Assembly (NCBI RefSeq): GCF_900094885.1
Contig: NZ_FMBL01000002.1
Span: 240,638 to 304,637 of the forward strand
DNA: 64,000 nucleotides
From: Bifidobacterium commune
GTDB taxonomy: Bacteria > Actinomycetota > Actinomycetes > Actinomycetales > Bifidobacteriaceae
Direction of reading: 5' to 3'
A program made the translations under genes and the position numbers. A model generated the notes under the pieces. It was not told the origin of the DNA. It worked only from the letters and a program-made list of their open reading frames with translations, and did no database searches. Shown here piece after piece: positions 3,886-44,169 of the stretch; position 1 is the stretch's first letter; each line of letters opens with the position of its first letter.

Positions 3886-4554
3886 ATGCCAAGGGAAACC
3901 ACGCAGCAACGCAGTGATCGCATCCACGCCGAATACGCTGTGCTGTGTCGGATGTTCCCCGAAGCGATCTGCACACTCGACTTCCAGACACCGTTCCAAC
4001 TGCTCGTCGCCACCGTTCTGAGCGCACAGACCACGGATGTAAGGGTCAACAGCGTCACACCAGAACTGTTCAGCAACTACGGCACCCCAGAAACACTTGC
4101 GGTGGCCAATCCGGAGCACATCGAAGACATCATTCATCCGCTGGGCTTCTACCACACGAAGTCAGCTCATATCATCAAACTCGCTAACCAAATCGTCAGC
4201 GATTTCAACGGTATTGTGCCACAAACCATGGAAGAGCTGACCAAACTCGCCGGCGTCGGGCGTAAAACGGCGAACGTCGTTTTGGGTGATGCGTTTGATG
4301 TTCCTGGGTTCCCCGTCGACACGCATGTCATCCGTGTGACGGGACGCTTGCGTTGGCGCACCGATTGGCGTGACAAGCACCCCGATCCGGTTAAGGTCGA
4401 AAAAGAAATCACCCAATATTTCGAACCGTCGGAGTGGTCGGATCTTTCACATCGACTCATTCTTTTCGGACGCACCGTCTGTACGGCCCGCAACCCCGAC
4501 TGCGAATCGTGCCTGCTGAACGATACATGCCCAAGCGCCGGGCATCCGCTCTGA
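3886..4554 (+). CDS. nth: Endonuclease III (DNA glycosylase/AP lyase)
   Basis: Endonuclease III removes oxidised pyrimidines from DNA and cleaves the resulting abasic site, in base excision repair. The 222 residues match the family length. The helix-hairpin-helix LAGVGRKTANVVLGDAF carries the catalytic Lys, and VDTHV carries the catalytic Asp. Four cysteines at the C-terminus spaced C-x6-C-x2-C-x5-C form the 4Fe-4S loop. LVATVLSAQTTD near residue 40 is also diagnostic. The start has AAAGGAACG upstream. It lies about 160 bases after glnR on the same strand and could be read with it, though no functional link is apparent. Confidence 0.96.
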   Translation: MPRETTQQRSDRIHAEYAVLCRMFPEAICTLDFQTPFQLLVATVLSAQTTDVRVNSVTPELFSNYGTPETLAVANPEHIEDIIHPLGFYHTKSAHIIKLANQIVSDFNGIVPQTMEELTKLAGVGRKTANVVLGDAFDVPGFPVDTHVIRVTGRLRWRTDWRDKHPDPVKVEKEITQYFEPSEWSDLSHRLILFGRTVCTARNPDCESCLLNDTCPSAGHPL

Positions 4555-31728: not shown

Positions 31729-32568
31729 TCAGTTCAGCCCGTGAACAGCTTCAGCCAACGAACGGACATACTCGCAAACATAGGGCACCGAGTCCTCGCC
31801 ATGCTCTCCAACCATGCGCACGATGGCCGAACCAACGATGGCACCACCGGAATCCGCAGCCATCTGGACGGCCTGCTCAGGAGTCGAGATGCCGAAGCCG
31901 ATGGCGACGGGCACGTCGGTGACGGAACGCACTTCGCGCACCATGCCCTTCACATCGCTGGTGATTTCCTTGCGGACGCCGGTGACGCCAAGCGAGCTGA
32001 CACAATAGATGAAGCCTTTGGCGTCCGAGGCGATGCTGTGGATGCGCTCGTGCGAGGTCGGCGCGATGAGGCTGACCAGATCGATCCCCTCGGCAGCGAG
32101 CGGCTCGTCGAATTCCGGCTTTTCCTCGTGCGGCACGTCCGGCAAAATCACACCGTCGAGCCCGACTTCAGCGGCGCGATGCGCGAAACGCTCGAGACCG
32201 TAGGAATAAAGCACGTTGGCATAGGTCATGAAGACCATCGGCGTATTGATGCCGTGCTCCCTCCGGAGACGGGCGACCAGCGCAAAGGCGTCATCGGTGG
32301 TGGTACCGGCCGCGAGGGCACGGTTGCTCGCCTCCTGAATGACCGGTCCCTCGGCGGTTGGGTCGGAGAAGGGCACGCCCAGTTCGATGAGGTCGGCACC
32401 AGCTTCGACCATGGCCGGCACAAGTTTCTCGGTCAGGGCGATTGAGGGGTCGCCGATGGTGACGAACGGAATGAAGGCCTTGCGGCGGCAGCCGTCGGCG
32501 GCCGTGAACGCCTGGGCAATACGGGACCGGCGGACACCGGCCTGCCGGGTCTGTGTTGTCTCAGTCAT
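31729..32568 (-). CDS. trpA: Tryptophan synthase alpha chain
   Basis: TrpA cleaves indole-3-glycerol phosphate to indole and glyceraldehyde 3-phosphate; indole is channelled to TrpB. The 279-residue TIM barrel has [12 protein letters not shown] at the entry, [20 protein letters not shown] with the catalytic Glu and Asp, [40 protein letters not shown] and the phosphate-binding [22 protein letters not shown] 32568 follows GGGGAGGATC and overlaps the trpB stop by eight bases. It is the last gene of the operon before its terminator. Confidence 0.97.
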
Positions 32569-33760
32569 GAAGATCCTCCCCACGATAACGGGCGATTGCC
32601 GCCACATCCTTGTCTCCACGACCGGACAAGGTGACGATGATGCTTTCGTCCTTCGGCAAGGTCGGCGCGAGCTTGATTGCGTAAGCCACGGCATGCACAC
32701 TCTCGATGGCCGGAATGATGCCTTCGATACGGCTCAGGTATTCGAACGCATCGACCGCTTCGTCATCGGTAACGGGGACATATTCGGCACGTCCGGAATC
32801 CTTCAGCGCCGCATGCTCGGGCCCGACGCCCGGGTAGTCAAGACCGGCGGAAATGCTGTAGACCGGTGCGATCTGGCCGTATTCGTCCTGGCAGAAATAA
32901 CTCTTCATGCCGTGGAAGATGCCAAGCGAACCGGTGTTCATGGTAGCTGCGGTGTCCTTGGTATCAATGCCGCGACCTGCCGCCTCGCAGCCGATGAGCC
33001 GCACGTCCGTGTCATCGATGAAATTATAGAAGCTACCGATGGCATTCGAACCGCCGCCGACGCAGGCGATGACAGCTGCCGGCAACTTGCCCTCATCCTC
33101 AAGAATCTGCTCGCGGGCTTCTTTAGAAATGACAGCCTGGAAGTCGCGTACCATTGTGGGGAACGGGTGCGGGCCCATGCATGAACCAAGGCAGTAATGG
33201 GTGTCGCTGATGCGTCGCGTCCATTCGCGGAACGTCTCGGACACCGCGTCCTTGAGTGTGGCGGTGCCGGCGGTCACACCGCGCACTTCCGCCCCAAGCA
33301 GGCGCATACGGTAGACGTTAAGCGCCTGACGCTCCATATCCTCCTGGCCCATATAGACCACGCACTCCATGCCAAACAGCGCTGCGGCCGTAGCCGTGGC
33401 CACACCATGCTGACCGGCTCCGGTTTCCGCAATAAGCCTCGTTTTGCCCATGCGCTGTGCAAGAAGGGCCTGACCAAGCACGTTGTTGATTTTGTGCGCA
33501 CCGGTGTGGTTCAGGTCTTCACGCTTGAGATAGACCTTGGCACCACCGAGATCCTTGGTCATATTTTCGGCGCAATACAGCATCGAAGGCCGACCGGCGT
33601 ATTGTTTCTCCAGGTCGTCGAGCTCAGCGACGAAGTCCGAATCATTCTTGTAATGGCCGTAGGCCTCCTCCAGCTCGTTGACGGCGCCCATCAGCGTCTC
33701 GGGGATGTATTGTCCTCCGTGAACACCGAAGCGCCCTTTTGACGTGGGCGAGTTGGTCAT
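32561..33760 (-). CDS. trpB: Tryptophan synthase beta chain
   Basis: PLP enzyme that joins indole and serine to give tryptophan. The 399 residues contain [20 protein letters not shown] with the Schiff-base Lys, [20 protein letters not shown] with the catalytic Glu, [14 protein letters not shown] (PLP phosphate loop) and [11 protein letters not shown] at the end. This is the standard TrpB1 form that pairs with TrpA. It overlaps trpA by eight bases and lies about 128 bases after trpF, a wider gap than the rest of the operon. Confidence 0.98.
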
Positions 33761-33888
33761 GATTGTGCTCCTTTGTATAACTTCATATTAACGGTCGTTA
33801 TTCTTTGCGGCTTACGGTGTCCGCCAATCGGTTTGCATTCATCCGCCACCGGGAACCCGCACATTGCCGAATGGGCTTATTCATGCCT

Positions 33889-34617
33889 CTATTCGGGTTG
33901 ACGGTAACCTCCGACTTCGCCGGCGGTCTCCCGGACAGCCGCAACCACGGAGGACATCTTGCTCGGATCCTTGAGTCCGTCGGTTTCGATGCCGGAACTG
34001 AGATCGACGCCGAACGGGTGCGTTGCGGCAATGGCCCGAGTAACGTTGTCGGCCGCAAGTCCACCAGCTAGCATGAACGGACGGCGAACCCCTTGCGCAA
34101 GCGACCAATCGAACGTTTGCCCATCGCCGGAGCCCGCATCGAGAAGAATCATATCGGCCGAAGACTCAACGGCATGCGCGACATCTCCTTCGCTGTGAAC
34201 CGTGAATGCCTGCATAATCGGCACCTCGACCAACGCATGCAGACGATCGATATATTGCGCATCCTCTTCGCCGTGCAACTGGACGACATCAAGGACCGCC
34301 TGACGAACCACGTCAGCCACGGTTTGCGCAGGCTGGTTTACGAACACACCCACCGCACACGGCTTCTCGTGGCCGGTTTCGTCGGCCTTCGAGCGCAACC
34401 GTTCAACCAACTCAGCCGCACGTTCAGCCGAGACGCTACGGCGCGAACCAGGAACGTCGATGATGAACCCAACGGCATCGGGCATTGCTGCGATTGCGGC
34501 ATCAACGTCCTGTTCGCGTTTCAGCCCGCACAGCTTGACTTTGCAGCCCAGCGCATCTTTTAGGCCCATACCTCCAGCCACGCCAGCATAGCGTGTCGCC
34601 GCAGCGCCGGCCATCAC
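33889..34617 (-). CDS. trpF: Phosphoribosylanthranilate isomerase
   Basis: TrpF converts N-(5-phosphoribosyl)anthranilate to CdRP, step three after anthranilate. The 242-residue barrel shows KVKLCGLKREQDVDAAI with the catalytic Cys, VGFIIDVPGSRRSV, VVQLHGEEDAQYIDRL, ILLDAGSGDGQTFDWSLA with the catalytic Asp, FMLAGGLAADNVTRAI and FGVDLSSGIETDGLKDPSKM. The first 25 residues are extra. The start at 34617 overlaps the trpC stop (ATGA). A separate TrpF is worth noting, since many actinobacteria lack one and use bifunctional PriA instead. Confidence 0.95.
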   Translation of the reverse strand: MMAGAAATRYAGVAGGMGLKDALGCKVKLCGLKREQDVDAAIAAMPDAVGFIIDVPGSRRSVSAERAAELVERLRSKADETGHEKPCAVGVFVNQPAQTVADVVRQAVLDVVQLHGEEDAQYIDRLHALVEVPIMQAFTVHSEGDVAHAVESSADMILLDAGSGDGQTFDWSLAQGVRRPFMLAGGLAADNVTRAIAATHPFGVDLSSGIETDGLKDPSKMSSVVAAVRETAGEVGGYRQPE

Positions 34618-35468
34618 ACCGCCTCGCGTTCCGTAACAACGGACTGGGCACCACCACGAAGAGCCGCGAGCGCCGCGGTCTTGTCGGACGAACGCATGAG
34701 CGTCTCACCGATCAGCACTGCATCAACCCCGACCTTTTCGAGCGCGGCCACATCATCGGCATTGCGCACGCCGCTTTCGGAGACGAACACCCGGTCATCG
34801 CCAACAGTTGGCCGCAAATCAATACTGTGGTCAAAGTTCACTTCAAAGGTGCGCAGGTCGCGGTTGTTGACGCCGATCACGCGGGCTCCGGCGGCGACAG
34901 CACGCGGCACTTCCTCGGGATGGTAGGCCTCCACCAGCACACTCATGCCGAGCTCATGCGCCAACGCCAGATAATCCGCCAACTGCTTGTCGTCGAGAAT
35001 CGAACAGATAAGCAGCACCGCCGAGGCACCACACTCGCGCGCCTGATAGATCATGTATTCGTCCACCACGAAGTCCTTGCGCAGCACGGGAATATTAACC
35101 GTTTGCACGACCTCGCGCAGATGATCGTCGGATCCCTTGAACCACGTCGGCTCGGTCAGACAGCTGATGGCTGCCGCCCCAGCTTTTTCATAATCGCGGG
35201 CGATGTCGAGGTAGGGATAATCTTGCGCGATGATGCCTTTGCTCGGGGAAGCCTGCTTCAACTCGCAGATAAAACTCATGCCCGGGGCCTTCAATGCCCT
35301 TTCGAACGGAAACGCCGCTTCTCCACACTTCCCGCCCTTGAGCTTACGACAAGCCACCTCACGAGCGCCCTTCTCCACGTCGGCCTGTGGCACGCGCGCC
35401 TTTTCTTCGACCACACGCTCTCGGGTCTTTGTGGCGATGCGTTGCAAAATGTTGTCGAAATTGTTCAT
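34614..35468 (-). CDS. trpC: Indole-3-glycerol phosphate synthase
   Basis: TrpC closes the pyrrole ring of CdRP to form indole-3-glycerol phosphate. The 284 residues contain FICELKQASPSKGIIAQDYP with catalytic Glu and Lys, AISCLTEPTWFKGSDDHL, PVLRKDFVVDEYMIYQAREC, VIGVNNRDLRTFEVNFDHS and VSESGVRNADDVAALEKVGV followed by LIGETLMRS. ATG 35468 comes directly after the trpD stop. It overlaps trpF by four bases. A longer open frame to 35732 lies inside trpD and is not used. Confidence 0.97.
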   Translation of the reverse strand: MNNFDNILQRIATKTRERVVEEKARVPQADVEKGAREVACRKLKGGKCGEAAFPFERALKAPGMSFICELKQASPSKGIIAQDYPYLDIARDYEKAGAAAISCLTEPTWFKGSDDHLREVVQTVNIPVLRKDFVVDEYMIYQARECGASAVLLICSILDDKQLADYLALAHELGMSVLVEAYHPEEVPRAVAAGARVIGVNNRDLRTFEVNFDHSIDLRPTVGDDRVFVSESGVRNADDVAALEKVGVDAVLIGETLMRSSDKTAALAALRGGAQSVVTEREAV

Positions 35469-35469
35469 A

Positions 35470-36522
35470 TCAGGCCTCTCCTTCCGTGTACTTCTCTGCG
35501 AACGCCTGCGAATCTGCGACGATGGTGTCCAGCGCACTTGTCGCGTTGCCCGACGAAATCTGTTCACGAGCCAGCCCGATGCCTTCGCCGATGGAAGGCG
35601 TGGCGCCGGCGACATACAGTGCACAGCCAGCGTTGAACAGTGATGCCTCGAGTTTGGCCCCGGTCTGCTTGCCCGCAAAAATGGCACGAACCGTCGCCGC
35701 GTTCTCCTCGGGAGTACCGCCAAGCAGATCATCTTTCTTGCAGCGCTTGAGTCCGAATTCCTCCGGTGTCAGCGTCATTGCATGATATTCTCCGTCGCGC
35801 AGTTCGCAGACCGCGGTTTCGGCGGAAAGAGAGACCTCGTCCATCCGATCGCGGCCATAGACCACCATCGCCCGCTTCACACCGAGGCTTTCCAGTACGT
35901 GCGCGATTGGCTCGACGAGATATTCGTTGTAGACGCCGAGCAGGAAATAGTCGGGTCTGGCAGGGTTGGTCAGAGGACCGAGAATGTTGAAAACCGTGCG
36001 AAATCCGAGCTCCTTGCGAATCGGACCAACGTAACGCATCGCCGAATGATAGAGCTGGGCGAACAGAAATGCGAAATTGTCCTTTTCCAGCAATTCGACC
36101 GCTTCTTCGGGAGCCAAGGAAAGGTTCACGCCCAGCGCTTCGAGGCAGTCGGCAGTGCCGCACTTCGAGCTGGCCGCACGGTTGCCGTGCTTGCTGACCT
36201 TCACTCCGGCTGCCGCGCAAATAAGCGCCGCTGTTGTGGAAATGTTGAAGGTATTGGAGTTGTCGCCGCCCGTGCCGACGATATCCAACGTGGAAAAACC
36301 TGGATGCGACACCGTGGTAGCCAGCTCTCGCATGGCAGCTGCGCATCCGGCGATCTCATCAATGGTTTCGGCTTTGGCGGACTTGGTAGAAAGCGCCGCC
36401 AGGAAGGCCGCATTCTGGGTGGGAGTCGATTCGCCACCCATGATTTCTTTCATCGCTCGATATGCCTCATCGTAGGTCAGGTCGTGCTTGTTGACGATTT
36501 TGATGATGGCCTCACTGATCAT
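35470..36522 (-). CDS. trpD: Anthranilate phosphoribosyltransferase
   Basis: TrpD transfers phosphoribose from PRPP to anthranilate. The 350 residues show the family glycine-rich loop [40 protein letters not shown] and the [21 protein letters not shown] block (here [20 protein letters not shown]). AAGGAGG lies five bases before ATG 36522. The stop is immediately followed by trpC. A 54-base gap separates it from the truncated trpG, in contrast to the tight coupling of most genes here. Confidence 0.98.
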
Positions 36523-36576
36523 CAGGTCCTCCTTCGCCTTGGTGACGGTTGCTAATAAATGGTTCGACAGGTTGAT

Positions 36577-36825
36577 TCATGCGCTTCTCCGATCGCCAAA
36601 ACGATCGACAACGGCGATGAAGTTCCTCAACATCGTTTCGCCTTGTGGACTCAGGATGCTTTCGGGATGGAGCTGAACACCAAAAAGCGGGCGCGCGACA
36701 TGCTGCACGGCCATGATTTCATCCGAATCGACGGTGCGCACGACGCGCACGTCCGGCAGGACGGAGCCGATGAGCTGGTAAAGATTGTATGAGAAGCTGT
36801 CGTAATTGTCGACGATGGTAATCAT
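36577..36825 (-). pseudogene. trpG: Anthranilate synthase glutamine amidotransferase with large internal deletion
   Basis: The 82 residues start like TrpG (MITIVDNYDSFSYNLYQLIG) and end like TrpG (FGVQLHPESILSPQGETMLR with its His-Pro-Glu-Ser triad motif). The normal middle, about 110-120 residues including the nucleophile Cys in GxCLGHQ, is missing. The frame is kept, so an in-frame deletion of about 350 bases is the simplest reading; the join lies near VRVVRTVDSDEIMAVQH. GGAGGTG precedes ATG 36825, which overlaps the trpE stop (ATGA). The product cannot hydrolyse glutamine. TrpE may use free ammonia or borrow another amidotransferase. Sequencing or assembly error is possible. Confidence 0.85.
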
Positions 36826-38408
36826 GCCACACCTCCGTTCGCCTGCACGACGGCGTTCATCACGGCGCGCGCCTTGTTGCGGCATTCCTCGAACTCCTTG
36901 TCGGGGTCAGAATCCGCTACGATTCCAGCACCTGATTGCACGCAAAGCCTGTCTCGATGCTTGAACGCGAGACGGATGTCGATGCATGTATCGAGATTGC
37001 CGGAGAAATCGAGATAACCGATCGCACCACCGTAAATTCCTCGAGAAGAACCTTCAAGCTCCGAAATAATCTGGCAGGCGCGGATTTTAGGTGCTCCAGA
37101 AAGAGTGCCAGCAGGAAGCACCAAGTCCACCACATCCAGCGCATCCTTGCCATCGGCCAGTTCGCCGGCCACCGTGGAACCGATGTGCATGACATGCGAA
37201 AAGCGCACGATATCGTGCAGCCGCTCCACCTCGACACTGCCGAGTTTGGACACGCGACCGATGTCGTTGCGCCCGAGATCTACCAACATGTTGTGTTCGG
37301 CCAGTTCCTTCTCATTGTGCAACAAATCATGCTCGATGCGCCGGTCCTCCTCGGTGGTCTCACCGCGCGGACGAGTGCCGGCTAGCGGATAGGTGAGCAG
37401 CCTCCCATTTTCGAGGCGCACCAGTGTTTCGGGCGAGGCCGCGGCGATTTCGATGTTGTCGCTGGACATAAAGACCATATACGGGCTCGGGTTTTCGGCA
37501 CGCATCAACCGGTATGTGTCGAACAGACTTCCCGATGCCTGCGCGACAATCGGATTGGAAAGCACGACCTGGAAAATATCGCCGTCATGGATGTAGCGCT
37601 TCGCTTTGCCGACAATATCCGCGTAACGAGAGCAGTTAGGGGTCGGCTCAAGCTCGTTCTCAAAGTTCAATGGCCTGAACTCGTAACGCCGTCCGTCTTC
37701 GAGAATACATTGCATTTCATCGATGCGATGAACCGCACGCTCATAGGAAGCGTCCACATCATCGACATCGACGCCGGCAATGAGTTGAAGACGCTGACGG
37801 TAGGAATCGAAAGAAATGAGCTGATCGAAAAGCATCAAATCGACATCGGGCATATTCGCACGATCCTGTGCCGCTCGTTTCAGCACCGGCTCGGCATACG
37901 CCAGGTATTCGAAGGAGAAGTAACCGACCAGACCGCCGGCGAATGGCGGAAAACCTTCAAGGCAGGGGCTGCAATATCGGATAAGCACGTCCCGTATCGC
38001 TTCCTTGGGATGATCGACATGGCTCCGTTCCACCACGGTGTCTTGCGTGCCATGGCCTGCGGAAGCAACATGCTTGACTGTAAGCTCGCCGTCCTTGCAG
38101 GTCAGCTCGAGCTGCGGCGCAAAGCCGAGGAAACTGTAACGACCAAGCCGCTGACCCGCCTCCGCGCTCTCGAACAGGAAGCAATGGTTGGAAACCGCAC
38201 GCACGCGGCGCATGGCCTCAATGGTGGTCAGACGGTCTGCAAGCAGCTCGCGCATCACGGGGATACGGCGATAGGGACCGGTTTTCGCCAGCTCACGCAC
38301 CTCTTCGATCGAGGGGCGAATATCCGAGCACTCGGTTTGCACGCTCGAAGCGCGTCGAGTGATCGATTCGCCGCCCGCGCCCACAGCGCCGTTCTTGTGC
38401 ACACTCAT
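36822..38408 (-). CDS. trpE: Anthranilate synthase component I
   Basis: TrpE makes anthranilate from chorismate and ammonia and is the committed step to tryptophan. The 528 residues hold the complete chorismate-binding fold: NPSPYMVFMSSDNIEIAAAS, AGTRPRGETTEEDRRIEHDL, EHNMLVDLGRNDIGRVSKLG, VLPAGTLSGAPKIRACQII and CVQSGAGIVADSDPDKEFEE. The N-terminal FLFESAEAGQRLGRYSFLG contains the tryptophan-feedback segment. A GAGGGGGGTG site precedes ATG 38408. It is the first gene of the operon and sits directly behind the T-box leader; its partner TrpG is truncated. Confidence 0.97.
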   Translation of the reverse strand: MSVHKNGAVGAGGESITRRASSVQTECSDIRPSIEEVRELAKTGPYRRIPVMRELLADRLTTIEAMRRVRAVSNHCFLFESAEAGQRLGRYSFLGFAPQLELTCKDGELTVKHVASAGHGTQDTVVERSHVDHPKEAIRDVLIRYCSPCLEGFPPFAGGLVGYFSFEYLAYAEPVLKRAAQDRANMPDVDLMLFDQLISFDSYRQRLQLIAGVDVDDVDASYERAVHRIDEMQCILEDGRRYEFRPLNFENELEPTPNCSRYADIVGKAKRYIHDGDIFQVVLSNPIVAQASGSLFDTYRLMRAENPSPYMVFMSSDNIEIAAASPETLVRLENGRLLTYPLAGTRPRGETTEEDRRIEHDLLHNEKELAEHNMLVDLGRNDIGRVSKLGSVEVERLHDIVRFSHVMHIGSTVAGELADGKDALDVVDLVLPAGTLSGAPKIRACQIISELEGSSRGIYGGAIGYLDFSGNLDTCIDIRLAFKHRDRLCVQSGAGIVADSDPDKEFEECRNKARAVMNAVVQANGGVA

Positions 38409-38440
38409 CGTGGCACCCCCCTCAAGACTTTCGTCTCTTT

Positions 38441-38705
38441 TGGGACTAAAAAAGCCCGTCCCAGCTGTCGCTTACAGCCAAGGACGAGCGAATGCCCGCG
38501 GTGCCACCTTGATTCACGGTCTCCCGTGCTCTTAAAGACGCCAACACGTCTCCAGCAACTGACGTATGCCTTCACGTCACAGCCTCATGGTTGTTTCTAA
38601 CCAATCGGTGCGCCCTCGGCGGCCCACTCAACGGCTCGCTTTTCGTCCCGGCTCCCACCGTCCCAGGCTCGCTCTTCGCGCGTTTCCGCCTACTTCCCCG
38701 CTTCA
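38441..38705 (-). promoter_or_regulatory. T-box leader of the trp operon
   Basis: The minus-strand leader of trpE carries a canonical T-box core, AAGGTGGCACCGCGGG (38495-38510). Its distal partner CGTCCTT (38480-38486) completes the antiterminator, and that same segment is the left arm of the competing terminator. The bulge TGGC would pair with an acceptor end GCCA, which fits a G discriminator base as in bacterial tRNA-Trp. Stem I is long and G+C rich; a candidate TGG specifier lies at 38624-38626, but I could not fold stem I with certainty. Uncharged tRNA-Trp would then allow read-through into trpE. Confidence 0.82.
38448..38486 (-). terminator. T-box attenuator terminator
   Basis: On the minus strand CGTCCTTGGCTGT pairs with ACAGCTGGGACG and is followed by GGCTTTTTT. 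It overlaps the distal arm of the antiterminator, so the two structures exclude each other, as in a transcription-terminating T-box. Confidence 0.88.
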
Positions 38706-38738
38706 TCGGTTTGCAGTGTTCAATTATCGGTAGTCAGG

Positions 38739-41613: not shown

Positions 41614-44169
41614 TTACTTACTGCTGTTCGGCTCATCATCCTTGCGTTTGCGAATCAACACGAGAGCGACACCGGCAGCGAGAAGCGCCACAACCATAAC
41701 CAGCACCGCCAACACGCCAACACCGGTATGCGCCAACGCACCCCTGAAAGTGGACGGACCCTTTTTCGAATTGAAAGCGTGACGAGCAGGATCATTCTTG
41801 GAGTTCTCTCCAACAGGATCATCGACCTTCTCCCACTGGGCGTAAGCCTTCCTTGCCGAAATCACCCGAGCCGAGAAATCAAACGGATCGTGACCCTCGG
41901 GATCCGAAGTCCATCCCTTGAAACGATATCCTTTACGAACCGGATCCGCAGGCTTGAATGCAAGATCGCCATGCGCTACGCTCTGCGAACTAACGTTCGA
42001 ACCGCCTTGAGTATCGAACTGCACTGGATGGACAATCCGCTTCCAAATACCGTACACCGTCGTGCCATCAGGCAAGGCGGAATCAAAATTGAACGGAGTA
42101 GAACCATCCTTGCTCAGAGACCATCCGACAAACTCGAAGCCCTCACGCACCGGATTCGCCGGTTTGCCGGGAATACCGTTGTCGGCAGGTTCGGTCGTAA
42201 AGACCGGAGTGCCGTTCTGTTCATCGAAATGGACTTTCGCCTTCTTCCACTTCGCATGCAAGGTGATGGTATTGGTCACTGCGTCATCAAACGGGTATGG
42301 ATCGGTTCCATCCTCGTTACGCCCCCAGCCTTCGAAGACGTAACCGGGCCTGACCGGATCTGCGGGCCGTTTCGCGGTCCCGTTATAGTCGACGCTCTGC
42401 ACCGGCGGAGCAGCCACAGACGGACTGCCTGTTTCGAACTTTACATCATACTTGTTGACGTCCCACTGCGCGTGCAGAACGATGTCATCGGTAACCGGGT
42501 CATTCGCGATATCGAAGGGATGCTTACCTTCCTTATCAAGGGTCCACCCTTTAAAGGTGTGGCCCACCTTGGTGGGAGCAGTCGGAGCACTCGCATGCTC
42601 CTGGAAAGGCACACTCTGTCTATCCGCCAATGTGCTGCCGCCGACGGAATCCTTGAAATCGACATTGAACTTGTGTTTCTCCCACTGTGCATGCAGTGTC
42701 ACATCGCCGGTGACCAGCGTATTAGCAAAATCATAGTTGCTACCGGCACCGTTCTCGTTCAAGGACCAACCTTTAAAATCATAACCATGAGATTTCGGAT
42801 CTTCCGGAGCCGTAACTTTCCCGTCATACTCGATGACTTGATCAGGAGGATTACTGACGTCACTCTTATGCGTCACGAACGTGGCCTTGTACTTCTTCGC
42901 GACCCACGTCAACTTCACTTCGGAAGCAGAATCAAACTTATAATCAGTCGGAAGGCATCCAGTTACACCATCCTTCTGCCAACAAGGCGTATAACCCACT
43001 TTCGACCTGGTCGGGAACGGCACACTCGACGGAGTGCCAATGACCTCCGAACCAATTTCCGTGGTACCGTCAACATCAAAGAAGATCACCTTTACTTTTA
43101 CGACCTGATTCACGAAGCCTTCGAACTTGAAGTTCTTGGAACCTCCTACCAAAGCCGAAAATCCCAGACCATGAATATCGGCCTTCGGGGAGCGCCATTC
43201 CACATAACCTTCACGGATATTCACATCTCCGCCTACGGGATCAGAACCCGTGATAGGCGCGTATGTTTTGGGATTGCCATCAGCAACGACAGCATCATAT
43301 ATCTTGTACGATTCACCTGGATTGCTCACTTGATAATCAGGATACTGACATACTTGTTCGTCTGCAGAAAACGCGTCCAATTGAGTCAAGAGACTGGACA
43401 AAGACGAGATGTCAATAATGTGGTTCGAATCGAGATTCAACTCTTTTAACGAGGTTAGTGCCCCCAGCCCGGACGGATCCTGAATGTCATTATCGCTTAG
43501 GCTAACGCTTGTCAGATTGTGCAATTGCGCAATCCAAGCGATATTCGACTTTGGTTTGGTCGAATCTGCCAGCCACGCATCGTATACAGTTGCACCTATT
43601 TTGCATGTCTCTAAGCGCAGACGTTCCAAGCCGGGGCTGTAGCGCGGCAGCAAATCAAATTTATCCTCACCTGCAAATTTCTTGATCGACAAATCCTTGA
43701 GATTGTGCAACTGGTCAAGATATTCGATATTCTTAAATTGTTTAGCGGCCAATGTCAGTTTCGTCAGCTTCTTCAAACTCCGCAGCACGGCGAATTCCTC
43801 TGATGGAGTGGAAGCATCTGTGAGAGTGAGCTCTTCCAGGTTAGTCAACTTCTCAAGGTTCTTGATATGTGGTGCATCAGGAAGATTCAACGCTTTAACC
43901 ATGTCCGCATATGCCTGAGACAATACAGAGGTATCCCTCAAAGTCGTACCAACACCTTGAGCCTGTAAGGCTCTGACTACTTTAGCAGCCACATCTCTAC
44001 CAAAACACTGTCTTATTGTGCTGGTCCCGACGATGCATTCCCCTGCACCATCCTCATCTGCATAAGCACTGGACGGCACCGCCAACAGACCGGTCACAGC
44101 CAAGGCGACGGCGACAAGCACTGCGGTCGCACGTCCACCCAATAACCGAATACCGTTCCTCAAACCCAT
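41614..44169 (-). CDS. Cell-wall-anchored internalin-like protein (LRR plus InlB repeats)
   Basis: The 851 residues start with a signal peptide (basic MGLRNGIRLLGGR, hydrophobic core, cut near AYA-DE at 37). A leucine-rich repeat block follows (about 90-270, units such as LEKLTNLEELTLTDAS, LDQLHNLKDLSI and LGALTSLKELNLDSN). After an Ig-like linker come about five InlB B-repeats of 70 residues (GYDFKGWSLN, GHTFKGWTLD, GYVFEGWGRN, GFEFVGWSLS, GYRFKGWTSD). The end carries LAHTG, a hydrophobic helix and RKRK, a sortase sorting signal with Ala and His in place of the usual LPxTG residues. Domain order matches internalins. Adhesion to host or matrix is inferred. Confidence 0.88.
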   Translation of the reverse strand: MGLRNGIRLLGGRATAVLVAVALAVTGLLAVPSSAYADEDGAGECIVGTSTIRQCFGRDVAAKVVRALQAQGVGTTLRDTSVLSQAYADMVKALNLPDAPHIKNLEKLTNLEELTLTDASTPSEEFAVLRSLKKLTKLTLAAKQFKNIEYLDQLHNLKDLSIKKFAGEDKFDLLPRYSPGLERLRLETCKIGATVYDAWLADSTKPKSNIAWIAQLHNLTSVSLSDNDIQDPSGLGALTSLKELNLDSNHIIDISSLSSLLTQLDAFSADEQVCQYPDYQVSNPGESYKIYDAVVADGNPKTYAPITGSDPVGGDVNIREGYVEWRSPKADIHGLGFSALVGGSKNFKFEGFVNQVVKVKVIFFDVDGTTEIGSEVIGTPSSVPFPTRSKVGYTPCWQKDGVTGCLPTDYKFDSASEVKLTWVAKKYKATFVTHKSDVSNPPDQVIEYDGKVTAPEDPKSHGYDFKGWSLNENGAGSNYDFANTLVTGDVTLHAQWEKHKFNVDFKDSVGGSTLADRQSVPFQEHASAPTAPTKVGHTFKGWTLDKEGKHPFDIANDPVTDDIVLHAQWDVNKYDVKFETGSPSVAAPPVQSVDYNGTAKRPADPVRPGYVFEGWGRNEDGTDPYPFDDAVTNTITLHAKWKKAKVHFDEQNGTPVFTTEPADNGIPGKPANPVREGFEFVGWSLSKDGSTPFNFDSALPDGTTVYGIWKRIVHPVQFDTQGGSNVSSQSVAHGDLAFKPADPVRKGYRFKGWTSDPEGHDPFDFSARVISARKAYAQWEKVDDPVGENSKNDPARHAFNSKKGPSTFRGALAHTGVGVLAVLVMVVALLAAGVALVLIRKRKDDEPNSSK
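41827..42882 (-). repeat. InlB-type coding repeats (about five units)
   Basis: Five units of about 210 bases encode roughly 70 residues each of the internalin-like protein. They share the glycine-aromatic-x-aromatic-x-GW core and an LHAQW/LHAKW end. They are more diverged from one another than those in the surface protein at 22.7 kb, pointing to an older array. Confidence 0.75.

Follow-up and report, generated by a model that had tools for sequence, protein, structure and literature searches.

We have identified a tryptophan operon in Bifidobacterium commune in which the core of trpG has been lost through a 351-base in-frame deletion and which is otherwise intact. It is an even call whether the anthranilate synthase of this strain is fed with free ammonia through TrpE alone. 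This is the explanation that we prefer, ahead of an early tryptophan auxotrophy, its main rival, to which we give clearly less credence. Should tryptophan synthesis still operate in this strain, the strain represents a natural experiment in which evolution has removed the glutaminase and kept all else, and sister species with a full-length TrpG offer a direct test of how far the pathway depends on ammonia from the environment. Should it not, what is seen is the opening step of tryptophan auxotrophy in a bifidobacterium with a small genome. The operon lies in a window of 64,000 nucleotides, the whole stretch of DNA that was analyzed, and the genome of the window (assembly G000) comprises 1,633,662 bases in 4 contigs, with 95.17% completeness and 0.08% contamination. 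Features of the operon are collected in Table 1. Elsewhere in the window, an 851-residue open reading frame (41614-44169, minus strand) has a translation suggestive of a surface protein, with stretches rich in leucine, repeats of ~70 residues and a putative C-terminal membrane anchor.

Table 1. Features of the trp operon and its leader, in order of transcription (positions in the window)
Feature	Position	Strand	Evidence
T-box leader upstream of trpE	38477-38715	-	Rfam RF00230, 68.3 bits, E 7.8e-15, under gathering score 93
trpE, anthranilate synthase component I, 528 aa, intact	36822-38408	-	TIGR00564, 482.5 bits, profile positions 1-454 of 455
trpG remnant, 82 aa	36577-36825	-	core deleted in frame
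Deletion junction (probable)	36730-36750	-	about codons 28-32 of the remnant; junction DNA compared with both sides in 12 relatives
Shine-Dalgarno-like GGAGG, 5 bases ahead of the trpD start	36528-36532	-	read from sequence
trpD, anthranilate phosphoribosyltransferase, 350 aa	35470-36522	-	TIGR01245, 403.4 bits, above cut-off
trpC, indole-3-glycerol phosphate synthase	34614-35468	-	name from operon position and sequence
trpF, phosphoribosylanthranilate isomerase	33889-34617	-	NF002298, 159.7 bits, under cut-off 215
trpB, tryptophan synthase beta, 399 aa	32561-33760	-	TIGR00263, 634.2 bits
trpA, tryptophan synthase alpha	31729-32568	-	name from operon position and sequence; tblastn to relatives

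The trpG remnant is open from ATG to TGA without a stop codon or frameshift, and its start overlaps the trpE stop codon in an ATGA at 36822-36825. Its two parts, TrpG residues 1-30 and the final 52 residues, are fused in frame. Compared with the closest full-length homologues found, the metagenomic proteins P0127-P0129 (199 aa each), 117 codons (351 bp) are absent, and the alignment to these sisters shows a single 117-residue gap after remnant residue 29 or 30. The gap contains the GVCLGHQ nucleophile motif together with the MHGK and ARYHSLE segments. With the nucleophile loop deleted, residues required for function are lost; the remnant has no Cys at all, and the nucleophilic Cys of GxCxGHQ is gone. 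The catalytic His-Pro-Glu is retained as LHPES at remnant residues 52-56. Identity to P0127, P0128 and P0129 amounts to 74, 72 and 74 of the 82 positions, respectively, and on this sequence comparison the homology to the sister TrpGs is beyond chance. The TIGR00566 profile is matched in two stretches, at profile positions 151-191 (the best) and 1-33, and the score of 68 bits is below the curated cut-off of 121.05. A sequence-only reading of this DNA had described a start coupled to trpE, 30-odd N-terminal residues and an HPES tail with 110-120 residues missing between them, and the removal of the catalytic cysteine (GxCLGHQ) by an in-frame deletion. All of this agrees with the alignment, and the core-deleted trpG is confirmed as an observation and was correctly described.

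The same locus was located in 12 other genomes (G002, G004, G015, G029, G034 and G115-G121), chosen by a TrpG identity of at least 87% to the TrpG of G002, which is itself included. Such a choice would miss a genome that has this operon and lacks trpG; in the TrpE search, the sole further genome at 480-500 bits was G101 (498 bits), the TrpG of which is 60% identical. A trpE sequence stands upstream of trpG in all 12 relatives, with a gluQ-like gene before the operon and a yggS-like gene after it (names assigned from sequence). A full-length trpG lies between trpE and trpD in each of the 12, among which trpD is broken in G115 and trpE is interrupted in G115 and G015. Thus, the trpG deletion is a derived state that, within this sample, occurs in G000 alone; a clade-wide deletion was considered and rejected on the same count in these relatives, picked as they were by TrpG.

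A wider survey covered 112 genomes of the genus, which were searched for TrpE and TrpG/PabA. TrpE was matched in 98, in G008 only as a weak fragment, and 94 of the 97 genomes with TrpE (G008 excluded) have, at the level of matches, a TrpG/PabA at E 2.6e-33 or better. The best such match in G101 contains one TGA. The match in G025, also among the 94, spans query residues 43-187 in a 309-residue open reading frame with GVCLGLQ. The remaining three of the 97 are G028, matched in two pieces of a 315-residue frame with GVCLGLQ; G114, a Bifidobacterium genome that is 91% complete and has a full TrpE match and no TrpG/PabA match above the level of GuaA; and G000 with its remnant.

At the junction, the DNA resembles the joint of two short imperfect direct repeats, which in the relatives encode VRVVR (towards the N-terminus) and LR(I/V)VAR (towards the C-terminus). 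The junction probably falls within these repeats, with a breakpoint uncertain by a few bases, and their presence would fit a deletion through slippage.

Substitutions in the remnant were compared with those in its neighbors. At positions invariant in the 12 relatives and the 3 sisters, the remnant is changed in 3 of 49 (I22V; F52L, which turns QFHPES into QLHPES; and T59S); the corresponding count for TrpE is 2 of 351. Because the TrpE set includes a closer sister, this difference alone does not show relaxed selection. Against the relatives alone, the remnant is changed at 4 of 52 positions, a smaller share than in trpE (60 of 421) or trpD (37 of 298), and these counts do not show a marked speed-up of the remnant that would point to decay. 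Owing to broken genes, G115 was left out of the relatives-only counts except for trpG, and G015 was left out for trpE. At 61 and 59 of 421, the trpE of the closest sisters has changed to the same extent, which means that the greater part of the trpE change is common to them and G000.

The remaining genes of the operon appear in good order. There is no stop codon or frameshift in any trp gene of G000, and departures from columns conserved at 97% or more were few, at 2 of 145 in trpE, 1 of 98 in trpD, 1 of 59 in trpC, 0 of 33 in trpF, 0 of 211 in trpB and 0 of 74 in trpA. The homologues behind these columns came from 79 fetched loci and the 12 relatives; of these 91, the number usable was 90 for TrpE, 77 for TrpD, 75 for TrpC, 74 for TrpF, 72 for TrpB and 62 for TrpA. 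Locus L067 (the G115 genome) and columns with fewer than 30 sequences were omitted, as were, for all genes but trpG, matches to less than 60% of the gene. The TrpE score lies under the curated cut-off of 517.7 for TIGR00564, as do those of the 12 relatives. In tblastn searches, trpC matched 11 relatives at 76-82% along almost its full length and G115 in part. The trpA start was set at MTETTQ, within a longer open reading frame reaching 32700. The claim of the sequence-only reading that the rest of the operon is intact therefore stands, with TrpE, D, C, F, B and A all open and nearly all of their conserved residues kept. The T-box leader was also found in 4 of 4 relatives tested, likewise below the gathering score, and from the alignment to the model, a UGG triplet at the specifier position can be read as a Trp specifier.

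The T-box-led operon (31729-38715), together with loci L154, L155 and L177-L186, looks acquired in this Bifidobacterium group when TrpE sequences are compared. The TrpE of the group is 57-64% identical to its counterparts at 7 loci from Coriobacteria-type genomes, Dialister and Blautia, compared with only 41-42% for those of 8 ordinary Bifidobacterium genomes.

The nearest public TrpE, P0242 (longest contig 6.9 kb), is 97% identical (513 of 528 positions). Since the split of the two, 6 derived substitutions have arisen in the TrpE of G000 and 5 in P0242, with 4 ambiguous, so TrpE is not accelerated relative to P0242. One of the six is G477D. Position 477 is Asp in G000, whereas the 131 other TrpEs in the comparison, which leaves out G115, have Gly (94), Ala (32) or Ser (5) there. 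Two residues further on is a conserved Arg, which we take to be a substrate-binding residue, a chorismate ligand in the Serratia enzyme. From its position, the substitution could weaken TrpE or leave it unaffected. When a wider set of 185 columns is scored, TrpE departs at 4, a number equaled or exceeded in 22 of the 131 other TrpEs; among the 11 relatives in that set, 10 depart at 0 or 1 and G015, with its frameshifted trpE, at 6. Chorismate synthase and an ammonium transporter are both present in G000. Taken together, the pathway looks to be still in use, or to have lost the partner of its first enzyme very recently.

A substitute for the lost glutaminase was sought in the whole assembly. 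PF00117 matches six places in G000, namely GuaA, PyrG (both named from their sequences), CarA, HisH, a PRK07053-like amidotransferase and the trpG remnant. Profile searches with PF00117 and TIGR00566 of this 95% complete assembly found no second TrpG/PabA over the TIGR00566 cut-off, and a PF00425 search found no PabB, TrpE being the sole chorismate-binding enzyme matched. In the 12 relatives, the genus search, with matches sorted by E-value and complete to about 3e-16, gave no second TrpG/PabA match better than 1e-17. Given this, there is no sign of a second trpG concealed in the 5% that the assembly lacks, and its 95% completeness leaves a small chance of a trpG elsewhere. The sequence-only reading had allowed for a borrowed PabA-type amidotransferase and had proposed a genome search for another trpG/pabA; that search returned none above the family cut-off, and borrowing is not supported, as TrpE is the only PF00425 enzyme and the spare amidotransferase is old. 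The PRK07053-like gene was present, at 52-84% identity, in each of the 18 relatives searched and so was not gained to replace TrpG; a compensating gain of another amidotransferase was rejected on this ground.

It is hypothesized that the deletion arose between the two short imperfect repeats and left a protein without glutaminase activity that probably does not fold. TrpE would then carry out its known ammonia-dependent reaction, and with the glutaminase gone it would be limited to that reaction, such that tryptophan synthesis would follow the ammonium supply. The kept reading frame would let translation continue from trpE into trpD, even though a separate Shine-Dalgarno-like site precedes trpD. 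The reaction itself is known from reviews, which state that the alpha subunit alone suffices for ammonia-dependent anthranilate formation from chorismate at high ammonium (PMC10464499) and that monofunctional AS-alpha uses free ammonia (PMC12279710). Ammonia feeding is supported by the conservation of the other trp genes, the unaccelerated TrpE, the kept T-box leader and the presence of chorismate synthase and the ammonium transporter. Counting against it are G477D, which could harm TrpE, and lesions of the same operon in G015, G115 and G034, as expected of a dispensable pathway. In G015, a genome assembled as one contig, trpE has a mid-gene frameshift (L185, around 4175-4185). In G115 (MAG B-bin1; L182 / L067), trpC and trpB are fused in one 394-residue open reading frame, trpF and most of trpD are missing and trpE is interrupted, which reflects either decay or a fault in the MAG assembly. 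In G034 (L155), there is no trpF between trpC and trpB. On the basis of these three genomes, at least part of the group can probably do without the pathway.

The same lesions, together with G477D, speak for tryptophan auxotrophy, the strongest competitor, though a less probable one than ammonia feeding. Under auxotrophy, the deletion would be the first fixed lesion of an unneeded pathway whose other genes have not yet decayed. The small genome, 1.63 Mb compared with 2.0-2.6 Mb in all 12 operon-sharing genomes, points the same way, as do the three substitutions in the remnant, including QFHPES to QLHPES, at positions invariant in relatives and sisters. Auxotrophy is opposed by the lack of any stop codon or frameshift in the trp genes of G000, by a TrpE that is not accelerated relative to P0242, and by TrpB, TrpA and TrpF without a single departure from conserved columns. 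Free ammonia and auxotrophy were the other two outcomes put forward by the sequence-only reading; between them, the state of the other trp genes leans towards free ammonia through TrpE, with the caveat that if the deletion were very recent, their conservation would say little. An error of assembly or sequencing, in which the real trpG is full length and 351 bases were lost between the short repeats, is decidedly unlikely. Imperfect repeats do flank the deletion, and near relatives may keep the gene, given that the closest TrpGs found (P0127-P0129) are full length and that a 97% identical TrpE exists. Few-base repeats rarely collapse assemblies, however, and the contig is 373 kb long with trpG ~95 kb from its nearer end. 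The remnant also has substitutions of its own (the 3 of 49 above), and the exact 82-residue protein is listed with 4 public contigs, possibly not independent, in a cluster with no second member sequence.

Two further explanations carry little weight. The remnant might still work as a small non-catalytic subunit that stabilizes or regulates TrpE, an idea that draws on the kept frame, the ATGA coupling, the 88-90% identity to the sisters and the recurrence among public proteins of core-less TrpGs with intact ends. We regard it as very improbable, with most of the TrpG sequence gone and a poor AlphaFold2 model (mean pLDDT 58.4, pTM 0.46), which, coming from a thin alignment of only 13 sequences, is in line with a remnant that would not fold well. 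Slimmer still is the chance that another amidotransferase of the cell (the PRK07053-like protein, GuaA, CarA, HisH or PyrG) feeds ammonia to TrpE; class-I amidotransferases are present and the PRK07053-like one keeps GICLGHQ, but none reaches the TrpG/PabA cut-off, and the occurrence of the PRK07053-like gene in every relative searched argues against a compensatory gain.

Public proteins were searched with the remnant, giving 1005 matches, and 14 proteins from the best 120 of these, the remnant included, were examined. Nine of the other 13 keep both ends without the nucleophile (P0002-P0009 and P0011), P0010 keeps the nucleophile, and P0032, P0047 and P0115 are N-terminal fragments with unrelated tails. 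The nine proteins with both ends and the remnant together show eight distinct deletion end points, and for five of these ten every contig is at most 3 kb long. P0003, P0004 and P0007 represent a 113-residue TrpG that lacks the nucleophile loop and has ends similar to those of Lachnospiraceae TrpGs. For P0004, there are 13 member sequences and 154 contigs; its ends, like those of the G000 remnant, are joined in frame without GxCLGHQ, at end points that differ from those of the remnant, and they match Lachnospiraceae TrpGs at up to 83-84%. The whole protein was not found among the matches listed for 397 Lachnospiraceae genomes, where the best match covers residues 1-70 only, nor in the one genome searched of another genus. 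A bias towards in-frame loss cannot be claimed here, since a protein search finds in-frame deletions only. That core-less TrpG is a recurrent product, the glutaminase being shed in ammonia-rich guts by in-frame deletions that spare both ends, to leave an ammonia-fed enzyme and a TrpG stub, is a speculation that we consider unlikely to hold.

Literature searches, limited to open-licence papers, brought up no previous description of a trpG without its core, nor any of this genome. Relative to TrpG as it is known, i.e., anthranilate synthase component II, a class-I glutamine amidotransferase (TIGR00566), the G000 remnant is alike in its operon place after trpE, its N-terminal 30 residues and its C-terminal HPES, and differs in lacking 117 residues that include the nucleophile loop, hence 68 bits against 121.05. 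Compared with isolated TrpE (AS-alpha), the intact TrpE of G000 without a working partner is likewise predicted to use NH3; the activity of isolated AS-alpha, as described in PMC10464499 and PMC12279710, comes from biochemistry of the separated subunit, and that of the G000 enzyme from prediction. The genome announcement of Campylobacter ureolyticus RIGS 9880 describes a strain without TrpG and other glutamine amidotransferases that perhaps uses ammonia from urease directly (PMC4645207). Both organisms would thus have a trp pathway without the TrpG glutaminase for which direct ammonia use is proposed, but in C. ureolyticus TrpG and other amidotransferases are reported absent, whereas G000 has an internal deletion and keeps HisH, CarA, GuaA and PyrG. 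Given this precedent, the concept of ammonia feeding is not new, and the in-frame core deletion with a coupled remnant is the variation that G000 adds to it.
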